DNA of 64,000 nucleotides, from assembly GCF_020520425.1 (NCBI RefSeq), contig NC_079492.1, positions 145,607,861 to 145,671,860 on the forward strand, written 5' to 3'. A program made the position numbers and the translations under genes. The notes beneath the pieces were generated by a model. It worked only from the letters and a program-made list of their open reading frames with translations. It did no database searches and had not been told where the DNA came from. This document shows, in pieces, positions 2,562-63,752 of the stretch; position 1 is the stretch's first letter, and the number at the start of each line of letters is the position of its first letter. This DNA is from Spinacia oleracea. Its lineage: Eukaryota; Streptophyta; Magnoliopsida; Caryophyllales; Amaranthaceae.

Positions 2562-2820
2562 CTGTATCACTAAATTGACAAGCTGCTAGTAATCTCAAAT
2601 CTCAATAACCAATTTCTGTATCACAAAACTGACGATCTGCTCAAATCGTAATCTCAATAACCAGATACTGTATAACTAAATTGATGAGCTGCTCAAATCG
2701 TAGTCTCAATAACCAGATACTGTATAACTAAATTGATGAGCTGCTCAAATCGTAATCTCAATAACCAATTACTGTATCAATGAAATGAAGGGCTGCTCGA
2801 ATTATAATCGCAATAACCAA
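2562..2820. repeat. Tandem repeat, about 52 bp, five units
   Basis: Units begin near 2562, 2616, 2668, 2720 and 2772. Each carries CTGTATMAC, a GAGCTGCTCAAATCG-like middle and CTCAATAACCA. The third and fourth units are almost identical, while the outer ones have diverged. It is non-coding. Confidence 0.75.
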
Positions 2821-2904
2821 GGACAGAGTGAAAGATTTCACCAAGAAAACTCAAATCAATATGAAATAAAAATGTATGGTTCATAACATATAAATGGGGT
2901 TATT

Positions 2905-3329
2905 CAAATTTCAACCATGGGTATGGGTTATTCAAGTTATGCTCTTCTACTAACAGTTTCCGTGTGTTGGGTGTTGACACCACTCATAGACGGAGACGAA
3001 GTAGCATCACCCCAAGTAATAGCCCCACATTGTTCACCCAAGTGTGGGAACATCACCATTCCTTACCCGTTTGGTGTTGAAGATTGTTGTTACTTTGCTG
3101 AACACAAACACAAAACTGCACTGCGTTATTGTGTTCATCAAAGTAACAACCATTTCTACACCAAACGGGTAAGAAATGGTGATGTTCCCACACTTAGGTA
3201 AACAATGTGAGGCGATTACTTGGGTGATGCTACTTCGTCTCAGTCGACGAGGGGTGTCAACACCCAATACACGGAAATGGTTAGTAGAAGAGCAAAACTT
3301 GAATAACCCATACCCATGGTTCAAACTTG
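2905..3329. repeat. Inverted repeat of a wall-associated-kinase (WAK) gene fragment; potential long hairpin
   Basis: The left arm (2905-3106) and right arm (3130-3329) are inverted copies separated by a 23-bp spacer (3107-3129). By eye about nine bases in ten pair. Read toward the spacer, each arm encodes the same start of a protein: an initiator Met (about 2917 on plus, about 3317 on minus), a hydrophobic signal-peptide-like stretch, and the motif CGNITIPYPFG or CGNITISYPFG. That motif, preceded by a cysteine pair, marks the galacturonan-binding GUB_WAK domain of WAK and WAK-like receptor kinases. Neither arm continues into the rest of that domain or a kinase, so no receptor is made. A transcript from either side would fold into a stem of about 200 bp, a possible Dicer substrate. 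The right arm ends about 200 bp beyond the stop codon of the minus-strand gene at 3533-3816, so read-through from that gene could supply the transcript. Expression is inference. Confidence 0.85.
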
Positions 3330-3532
3330 AAATTAATGGTTTTTGAACCCATACCCAAATTAAAGTTGCAATCTTTACAGAACTAAAATCAGAAGAGAAA
3401 CATTACAACATCTTTAAAGCCGCCCAAAGAGAGCCAATTTGAATACATCTCAGAAAATCATCGGACAAAAATTGATAAGAATCATTTATCACCTAATTAA
3501 CCAGGTTAATCCCATCGAAAATTAGGGTTTCA

Positions 3533-3816
3533 TCATCTATGAGCAGTAATTAGGGTTTCGATGAACCTTAACCCGTCGAATCTGGGAGAAAATTTCTCCT
3601 TCCCAATTGACGATGATTGCGATCCATAAGGCGGAACTTCCTGCGATAAATCAAAACCCTAAAATTCATAAATTCATGAAAACGAGAATAATTGAAGAAC
3701 AGCCCTAAAAAGAAAATTAAATTGGGGAAAATTACCTGAAATTGTGAAGGAAATGTGAAAAGTGAGAAGGCAGATGCGGCAAGAATCGATGCCACAAGAC
3801 CGCTGGATCTTCTCAT
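3533..3816 (-). CDS. Small conserved plant protein, 62 residues, function unknown
   Basis: Two exons, 3816-3736 and 3640-3533, joined by a 95-bp GT-AG intron. The frame is intact across the junction. The product begins MRRSSGLVASILAAS, a basic then alanine-rich hydrophobic N-terminus that could be an organelle targeting signal or membrane anchor. It ends FDGLRFIETLITAHR. I recall short plant proteins with the same MRRS/GLVASILAAS start and a KF.P.FDGLRFIETLVTAHR tail, which argues for a real conserved gene, but I know no function. The start is the first ATG in the exon. AAACCCTAA telo-box-like words occur in the intron and in exon 2. The WAK hairpin lies about 200 bp downstream. Product identity is inference; the exon structure is seen directly. 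Confidence 0.7.
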
Positions 3817-4085
3817 TGTTGATTTCCTTGTTGAACTGAATAGAATTCTAATGAAATTGGAAAGAAAAAGGTTGAAAATGGGCGAAATCCGGACAGCGCC
3901 GGATCTCGACCAAGAAGAAATTGGTCGCTCAATATCTTTTTGAGTTTATGGAGTATATTTGCGGCTACACGTTTTTGACAGAAAGAAATGTTCTGCACTT
4001 CGTAACTTCCACGCTATATTTTCTCTTTTTTTATATTGGAGAGAGATTTCCAATTCTGGCTGTTTTTTGGGGCGTTACGGACTTA

Positions 4086-21945: not shown

Positions 21946-23481
21946 TGGAGTACATGATCAGAAGCAAGACAGCAGCACACTTGAGCAAAATCAATCCATC
22001 ACCAATGACAAACTGATCAGCACACTTAAGCAAGATCAGTCCAACACAAGAGCTAAACTGATCACTGTATTGCTGACTCAGTTACTGACACTTGAAGACC
22101 ACAGTGCACAGATTTCTCTCAAGTCTCATTTACACAAGAAGTTCAGCATCAAAGATCTGGGTGAACTAAGCTATTTTCTTGGCATTGAGATTTCTAGGGT
22201 CTAGAGTGGTGTTTTCTTAACTCAATCCAAGTTTACTAGGGAACTTTTGGCAGATTGTAACAAGGATGTGTCCAAGTTAGCCAAAACACCTTTTCCTGTC
22301 AAACTTAAACTCACTACTTCAGTAGATGAGCCATATACTGATCCCACTCAGTATAGGTGCTTGGTTGGAAAGCTAACTTCCTCACTCACACTAGACCAGA
22401 TCTCTCTTTTGCAGTTCAAACCCTAAGTCATTTTATGCAATCTCCTAAGGTGTCTCACTCTCATGCTTTGAATCGTCTGCTTAGATATGTGGCTCATACA
22501 ATTGGTCAAGGGATATACATACAATCTTCTTCTCAATTGATCTTACAAGCCTATTGTGACTCCGATTGGGCTGCATGTCCTGATACTAGAAGATCTGTCA
22601 CTGGTTATGTTATGCTCCTTGGTACAAGTCCAATTTCTTGGAAATCCAAAAGGAAAAGTACCATATCCAGATCATCTTCTGAAGCTGAGTTTAGGGCTAT
22701 GGCTGCTGCAGCTTCAGAAATAACTTGGTTGGTTCGATTGTTACAAGAAATGGGTGTTTCTAACCTAAGTCCAGTTCAGCTTAAATGTGACAACCAATCT
22801 GCTATCCACATTGTAAAGAATCCAGTTCATCATGAAAGAACTAAACACATTGAACTGGATTGCCACTTTACAAGGGACAAAGTGTTAGAAGGTTTGATTG
22901 ATCTTACTTATGTTCCTACTTCTGATCAGCTAGCTGATGTGTTAACCAAAGTCTTGTCATATCCTCAACACTCTGAGTTATTGTCCAAGCTAGGTATGCT
23001 TTATGTTCAATCACCACCTAGCTTGAGGGGGGCTATTGGAGTACATGATCAGAAGCAAGACAGCAGCACACTTGAGCAAAATCAATCCATCACCAATGAC
23101 AAACTGATCAGCACACTTAAGCAAGATCAGTCCAACACAAGAGCTAAACTGATCACTGTATTGCTGACTCAGTTACTGAAACAGATTGAAGACCACATGG
23201 CACTGCAGCACACAGATTGGTGACTTGGCATAGGTTGTTACATGATGTAATAGTTAGTTATAACTAACTTTCTCTGTTGTGTTTCTTCTTCTTACAAACT
23301 AGCACACTAGTATAAAAGGCTGATGTACTTTGCTACTGCTCAATGTAACTAGAATCATTTTGATTCATAATCAATAAAATTCTCTTCTCTCTTTCTCTCA
23401 ATCAGAAGTTCCAAGTATAGAACTTCTTCAAACTTAGTAGCACTCGTGTGTGACCCTGCATCTCTGTTTTTGTTCCTAACA
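21946..23481 (+). mobile_element. Ty1/copia LTR retrotransposon fossil, broken
   Basis: Copia-family remnant on the plus strand. Parts seen are a piece of the 5' LTR (from 21946), the C-terminal part of pol (reverse-transcriptase tail and RNase H) and a 445-bp 3' LTR (23037-23481). A GAGGGGGGC-type polypurine tract precedes the 3' LTR. The pol order and the RNase H motifs are those of Ty1/copia. The stretch shared by the two LTRs (about 140 bp) appears identical, so the insertion is young, but the copy is broken and much of its interior is absent. No matching target duplication was seen at the outer edges. Confidence 0.85.
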
Positions 23482-60234: not shown

Positions 60235-60514
60235 CACTACAAGAAATTGTACTATTAACAACGGGAAATCCCGTCGCGAAAGGCCAATAATTGTTGATTA
60301 ACGACGGGATTTCCGGTCGCGAACCCGTCATAAAAGGGGGCCGTCGTTAATAGAAAATCCCGTCGTAAATCTGTCGTAAACCCGTCGTAAAAGACATTTG
60401 CGACGGTTATTCCCGTCATTGTTTGGTTGTTATCCCCGTCGCAAAAGGCTTTTGCGACGGGATTTTTGACCCGTCGTAATTAGGTTGTCGTTAAAGATAC
60501 AAATTCTTGTGGTG
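60235..60514. mobile_element. CACTA-type MITE
   Basis: Ends CACTACAAGAAATTGTAC and CAAATTCTTGTGGTG with a 3-bp duplication CGA (60232-60234 and 60515-60517). 280 bp. Dense CGACGGG/CCCGTCG words. Orientation is opposite to the copies at 53824 and 60871. Confidence 0.88.
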
Positions 60515-60870
60515 CGAGCACCATAGTTCACTATGTTTGAATCTAGTGAAGATCAATGTGAAAGTTACACGCCTTGCAAAATTATCATTTCCTAAACAAT
60601 TAGGATTCGATCTCTTGCTTTGTGCACGTTTTAAATCAATATGAAATCTAGTCGTTGTTATTGCATGTGTGCTTTGCCCACACAATAGGAAATCGCTTCA
60701 ACCCTATCTTATCATATTCAAAAGTGAATCTAGTCACTATTGTTGTGTTCCTTGCAACTTGTTTTTAAAGTGTCTTATTATATCCAATAAATCGTTACTT
60801 AAATCAAGAAAAATCAAAGTCTCGATGTAATGACATTTCTAAAATTGTTTCTGGAAGAACATCAAATATA

Positions 60871-61137
60871 CACTACAAGAATTTGTATCTTTTACGACAA
60901 CTTAATTATGACGGGTCAAAAATCCCGTCGCAAAAGCCTTTTGCGACGGGGCTAACAACCAAACAATGACGGGAATTACCGTCGCAAATGTCTTTTACGA
61001 CGGGTTTATAACGGGTTTACGACGGGATTTTCTATTAACGACGGCCCCCTTTTATGACGGGTTCGCGACAGGAAATCCCGTCGTTAATCAACAATTATTG
61101 GCCTTTCCCGTCGTTAATAGTACAATTTCTTGTAGTG
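60871..61137. mobile_element. CACTA-type MITE
   Basis: Ends CACTACAAGAATTTGTA and CAATTTCTTGTAGTG with a 3-bp duplication ATA (60868-60870 and 61138-61140). 267 bp. It lies 356 bp from the copy above in inverted orientation. Confidence 0.88.
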
Positions 61138-63555: not shown

Positions 63556-63752
63556 GGATCCTCTAGAGTTCTAAAATAACTCTACAAGGTAAAGTTTGAG
63601 CATATCAACCATTGAATGAAAAATCAATGGTTCATATATTATCTTTCCAAAATCTCCCCTATTTTTCTCATCAATATGAGCCATTGATTTTAAAATGTAT
63701 GGTTTAGATACAACTCTATCTTGTAGAGTTTTATTAAAACTCTAGAGAATCC
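63556..63752. mobile_element. Foldback MITE
   Basis: Inverted ends GGATCCTCTAGAGTTCTAAA and TTTAAT-AAAACTCTAGAGAATCC-like complement, with further pairing of CTCTACAAG and CTTGTAGAG. About 197 bp. No convincing target duplication, superfamily open. Confidence 0.6.

Follow-up and report, generated by a model that had tools for sequence, protein, structure and literature searches.

The spinach (Spinacia oleracea) genome contains, at an apparently unique locus, two inverted copies of the 5' end of a wall-associated kinase (WAK) receptor gene, which face each other across a short spacer and which, with a probability of roughly 45%, can act as a source of long hairpin RNA (hpRNA). The pair lies in the window, the 64,000-nucleotide stretch of contig NC_079492.1 analysed here, and is most reasonably viewed as a candidate hpRNA locus, for which a single intact gene is a plausible target; that it is inert is about equally likely. 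Facing arms carrying a WAK 5' fragment had been predicted at this site, and the inverted copies were recovered there. The relevant features, in window coordinates except for the last, are:

2903..3107, plus strand: left arm, a sense copy of the end of the WAK 5' UTR, the signal peptide and the start of GUB_WAK
3108..3128: spacer (loop) of 21 nt, from the repeat search
3129..3331, minus strand: right arm, an inverted copy whose decay shows in a TGA within the WAK frame and in two deletions of one base each
3332..3350, minus strand: possible extra similarity of the right arm to the 5' UTR of the related gene G9, seen by eye in the alignment
2917..3201, plus strand: open frame of 94 codons that begins in the left arm and terminates within the right arm
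3736..3816, minus strand: putative first coding exon, MRRSSGLVASILAASAFSLFTFPSQFQ, of 27 codons, with GT following at 3735-3734
L009 7354-9901 and L121 1-500: G9, with frame breaks and a stop

In the repeat search the arms are resolved into three nearly abutting inverted blocks (2903-3012/3222-3331, 3011-3081/3154-3224, and 3083-3107/3129-3153) with a complementarity of 91-92%. Over 205 columns, a single gapped alignment of the two arms shows 18 substitutions and two gaps of one base each, and an identity of ~91% is thus kept over 205 bp. When positions 2800-3450 are used as the query in a genome search, the locus matches its own opposite strand with an E value of 1.1e-146. The spacer is short, as had been predicted, and measures 21 nt rather than the 23 bp first given; on both of its sides, similarity to the WAK exon partly continues, as judged by eye. 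Directly to the left of the hairpin is a tandem array of about five units of 52-54 bp (2562-2859).

Minimum free energy (MFE) prediction folds the 456-nt region as one long stem on either strand, at -328.3 kcal/mol for the minus strand (z = -36.6) and -304.4 kcal/mol for the plus strand (z = -30.0), and none of 100 shuffles per strand is equally good. Folding the transcript had been suggested as a check, and the resulting single long hairpin confirms that the arms pair well. The locus therefore has what defines an hpRNA gene in form: a long inverted repeat, a short loop, and the ability to form a single stem. Transcription of the minus strand would convert 6 of the 18 arm substitutions to G:U pairs, and transcription of the plus strand 2 of 18; as a sign of minus-strand transcription this bias was rejected, since the numbers are too few.

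Each arm runs from the tail of a 5' UTR through the start codon and signal peptide into the opening part of GUB_WAK (in the left arm, HCSPKCGNITIPYPFG). The claim that each encodes a signal peptide and the beginning of this domain is thereby upheld, with matches to PF13947 (GUB_WAK) that are weak: the left arm scores 21.1 bits and the right arm 19.6 bits, both below the curated cut-off of 29.4, and they span positions 1-23 and 1-16, respectively, of the 64 in the profile. No other Pfam domain is found in the arm frames at E <= 1, and the arms fall short of a complete WAK receptor-kinase gene, which has GUB_WAK, EGF, and kinase portions. Two homologous genes, G6 and G9, do exceed the GUB_WAK cut-off (38.1 and 43.1 bits), and both also contain EGF_CA and kinase exons.

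A search of 894,210,420 bases in 242 records found no close DNA relatives of the hairpin other than G6 and G9, both on contig C5. Their DNA is 84-88% identical to the arms over ~200 bases, with another 40-base piece at 90%. In G6, at 6.06 Mb, GUB_WAK, EGF_CA, and a kinase split over two pieces are all encoded in open frames, which include the kinase motifs HRDIK, DFG, and SDVYSFG; judged from these, G6 looks like an intact WAK gene. In G9, at 9.08 Mb, exon 1 contains a frame break, and the kinase part contains further ones as well as a stop after DFG (by eye). G9 as assembled here is probably a pseudogene, and the exon 1 break could be a sequencing error at a G run. The search for WAK genes matching the arms, another check that had been proposed, thus recovers one intact-looking gene and one with broken frames.

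The left-arm frame is open for 94 codons from the ATG at 2917. In the comparison of arm with arm, the stop (TGA within the WAK frame, its complement at 3240-3242) and the frameshifts (two one-base deletions relative to the left arm) are confined to the right arm. Over the arm, pN/pS of the left frame is 0.079/0.099 against G6 (a ratio of ~0.8) and 0.066/0.164 against G9 (a ratio of ~0.4), and that of G6 against G9 is 0.098/0.155. These values give no clear sign of protein constraint on the left frame, in a stretch that is too short to exclude it.

The duplication had been called young, which is overstated. The two arms differ at 18 of 203 compared bases (8.9%) and the left arm differs from G6 at 17 of 199 (8.5%); thus, the left arm is at least as close to G6 as to the right arm. 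The remaining comparisons give 26/204 (left arm and G9), 26/197 (right arm and G6), 28/203 (right arm and G9), and 30/199 (G6 and G9). General plant substitution rates (7e-9 to 1.5e-8 per site and year) would place the separation of the arms roughly 3-7 million years ago. A four-sequence tree that includes the arm ends prefers the grouping (left,G6)(right,G9) with a RELL value of 0.912, and the alternatives, pairing left with right or left with G9, have AU p values of 0.074 and 0.045. With the core only, the same grouping again leads (RELL 0.772) and the left-right pairing, at an AU p of 0.26, is not rejected. Three sites in gap-free columns back left with G6 and right with G9, and one backs left with right. 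Both arms end at almost the identical exon position, which favours one event. They may derive from two paralogs, or from one fragment copied in reverse that later underwent conversion or acquired parallel changes by chance. The inverted WAK 5' repeat of the original prediction is real, and the reverse copying of one fragment is not shown by the trees. Where the other three sequences agree in gap-free columns, the right arm deviates at 9 positions and the left arm at 4.

For the prediction of targets, each 21-mer of either arm was scored as an antisense guide, with a penalty of 1 for a mismatch and 0.5 for a G:U pair, doubled at positions 2-12. The left arm (186 21-mers, 2903-3108) has 38 perfect matches to G6 and 130 with a penalty <=3; against G9 the counts are 17 and 117. 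For the right arm (184 21-mers, 3129-3332), 4 are perfect and 57 have a penalty <=3 against G6, and 5 and 76, respectively, against G9. Predicted siRNAs would thus suit mainly G6. Sites elsewhere in the family, for which a GUB_WAK search gives at least 91 matches at E <= 0.1, were scored on both strands of ~600-740 bases around each of the 89 loci besides G6 and G9. Of these, 7 have a left-arm site at <=3 and 28 at <=5; for the right arm the counts are 1 and 20. Twelve shuffles of the left arm find none at <=3 and from 1 to 7 at <=5. The equivalent segments of G6 and G9 themselves reach 11 and 9 loci at <=3 and 36 and 33 at <=5, so this wider reach, while it exceeds chance, reflects conserved WAK coding sequence and is not specific to the hairpin. 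With scoring of whole loci, G6 and G9 included, the left arm has a site at <=3 in 9 of 91 and the right arm in 4 of 91. A 27-base core of the conserved WAK stretch, allowing up to three mismatches, is present at four places, namely both arms, G6, and G9, and a control pattern at none. It had been expected that siRNAs from the hairpin would match WAK genes; this holds for exact 21-mers to the intact-looking G6 and does not extend to a broad reach across the family (7/89 for the left arm and 1/89 for the right). Because the left arm would be the antisense source if the minus strand were transcribed, the fit to G6 would be far better from that strand. By this scoring, it is the transcribed strand that determines which arm would provide the antisense guides to G6.

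No second hairpin of the same kind was found in the 894-Mb genome search, in which very common words are skipped. Three candidate places were scored for the query 2800-3450: G6, G9, and the hairpin locus. Neither flank (2450-2902 or 3351-4000) matches anything other than itself. A repeat-family transposon, which would have multiple copies with common ends, was considered and, within a search of this kind, ruled out by the lack of a further hairpin copy and by flanks that each match themselves alone. Other inverted repeats are present in the window. A pair at 60235-61137 consists of 237-bp blocks that are 95.4% alike and 356 nt apart (91% over ~280 bp). It starts CACTACAAGAAATTG, as CACTA-type elements do. 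Matches of ~280 bp recur genome-wide (40 scored out of 2661 first-look candidates), and the pair resembles two miniature transposons that point in opposite directions. A shorter repeat at 63556-63752 has arms of ~80 bp that are 78% alike and 36 nt apart.

If the putative minus-strand gene starting at 3816 is real, the hairpin may lie within its first intron. No later exon of this gene was identified; for relatives of the 27-amino acid exon, a PDB search gives one hit at E 0.88 and the genome search gives the exon itself alone. Ten frames of the region contain no Pfam match above the curated cut-off, and the few besides GUB_WAK look like chance. No Rfam family, among which a new miRNA is not expected, reaches its gathering score in the window. 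A long plus-strand frame at 22357-23223 resembles, by eye, the RNase H end of a retrotransposon of the Copia type, and the minus-strand frames ~1.8-6.3 kb to the left of the window (L010, G000:C6) resemble, again by eye, a granule-bound starch synthase. The hairpin locus is not named in listings from the literature searched. The available main text of a spinach flower small-RNA study (PMC9029227) does not contain 'wall-associated', 'receptor' or 'kinase'. The terms 'inverted duplication', 'wall-associated kinase', and 'small RNA' co-occur in PMC4848489, where a WAK2 signal peptide serves as a marker, and in PMC4845489; in PMC7339384, 'wall-associated' is confined to the reference list.

As a source of hpRNA, the locus would be transcribed to give an imperfect duplex of ~205 bp. 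In plants, DCL2/3/4 process long endogenous inverted repeats, and Dicer-like enzymes would cut this duplex to a mixture of 21-24-nt siRNAs. Antisense siRNAs would match mainly G6 (C5:6.06 Mb), along with G9, and G6 could be affected. Transcription of the minus strand, for example as an intron of the putative gene from 3816, would yield the better antisense siRNAs for G6. A fuller version, in which the hpRNA lies in an intron, is specific to the lineage, combines the facing 5' ends of two different WAK paralogs, and represses one WAK gene in trans on another chromosome, is unlikely. Counted against the hpRNA reading in general are the lack of wall-associated, receptor or kinase wording in the main text of the flower small-RNA study, a stem without any visibly better preserved part (by eye), and the pseudogene-like decay of the right arm. 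The same decay suits an inert relic, quite conceivably the true state of the locus: a pair of rearranged pseudogenes, either silent or producing at most low-level, self-methylating 24-nt siRNAs, and leaving WAK genes unaffected. The stop and frameshifts of the right arm, the arm-arm difference that about equals the difference between the left arm and G6, the left-frame pN/pS ratio of ~0.8 against G6 (0.4 against G9), and the pseudogene-like frame breaks in G9 are all in keeping with such a relic. The persistence of ~91% identity over 205 bp and of exact 21-mers to an intact-looking gene speaks against a relic, although at such divergence neither needs selection.

Other readings have far lower probability. 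A new MIRNA gene made by inverted duplication (the so-called Allen model) and releasing one defined miRNA is improbable: the arms do carry the extended sequence of a potential target, but the foldback is ~429 nt (2903 to 3331), and MIRNA annotation sets the limit for a compact foldback at about 300 nt. Mean precursor lengths of de novo miRNA genes are 171.85 nt in rice and 196.32 nt in Arabidopsis, as stated in the available part of PMC3237417. Moreover, the substitutions are scattered along the arms with no locally better-kept duplex (by eye), and the Rfam result, for what it can say of a new miRNA, points the same way. The suggestion of a proto-miRNA locus is consequently a poor fit. There is very little chance that the 94-codon frame specifies a secreted short WAK-like decoy peptide (signal peptide plus CGNITIPYPFG). 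A left-arm frame that is open while the right arm is broken would accord with this, as would the pN/pS of 0.066/0.164 against G9, which possibly reflects constraint on the gene branch instead; however, the value against G6 is 0.079/0.099, the frame terminates in the antisense of the other arm, the hairpin should impede translation, and only GUB_WAK positions 1-23 of 64 are present, under the cut-off. A foldback transposon or an assembly artefact is just as improbable as a decoy. Long inverted arms invite the idea, and the window does hold a real inverted transposon-like pair at 60235-61137, but the genome search gives no further copy of the hairpin and self-matching flanks, versus the 2661 first-look candidates for that pair. 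A mirrored read is unlikely because the arms differ at 20 places.

The spinach hairpin is a new example of an already known kind of locus. Plant endogenous hpRNA or inverted-repeat siRNA loci, such as Arabidopsis IR71 and IR2039, have a long, well-paired stem at a single locus, as is seen here; small RNAs are known from those loci and would be predicted for the spinach one. MIRNA genes reportedly arise by inverted duplication of their target genes (Allen et al. 2004, a work cited by PMC4848489 and PMC10575705), and the arms likewise copy a fragment of a potential target gene. In the available portion of PMC3237417, which treats this model, de novo miRNA genes have a match ratio of 75-80%; the spinach stem is much longer, pairs above this range, and is without a defined miRNA duplex. 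Transgenes for hpRNAs with mismatches and G:U pairs still silence, and the mismatches prevent self-methylation (PMC9263138, in the part available). Those hairpins are engineered, and the spinach arm mismatches are natural, with 6/18 (minus strand) or 2/18 (plus strand) giving G:U. If the spinach hairpin is active, a receptor gene family would have acquired its own silencer by rearrangement, before any miRNA was fixed, and a defined trans target, G6, can be named in spinach; if the two-paralog, intron-borne version is true, the locus would show a cell-wall receptor controlled by a hairpin of its own family, a rare example in nature. If inert, it is one example of a functionless gene-fragment hairpin. 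The Nmy and Tmy hairpins of Drosophila simulans share sequence kinship with their Dox-family targets. These newly emerged hpRNA loci silence the Dox family (PMC10292708, in the part available). They resemble the spinach locus as new hairpin RNA loci with kinship to a gene family, for which silencing is here a candidate role; they differ in being from an animal, in that, as far as that text goes, silencing is genetically shown, and in serving sex-ratio conflict rather than wall sensing.
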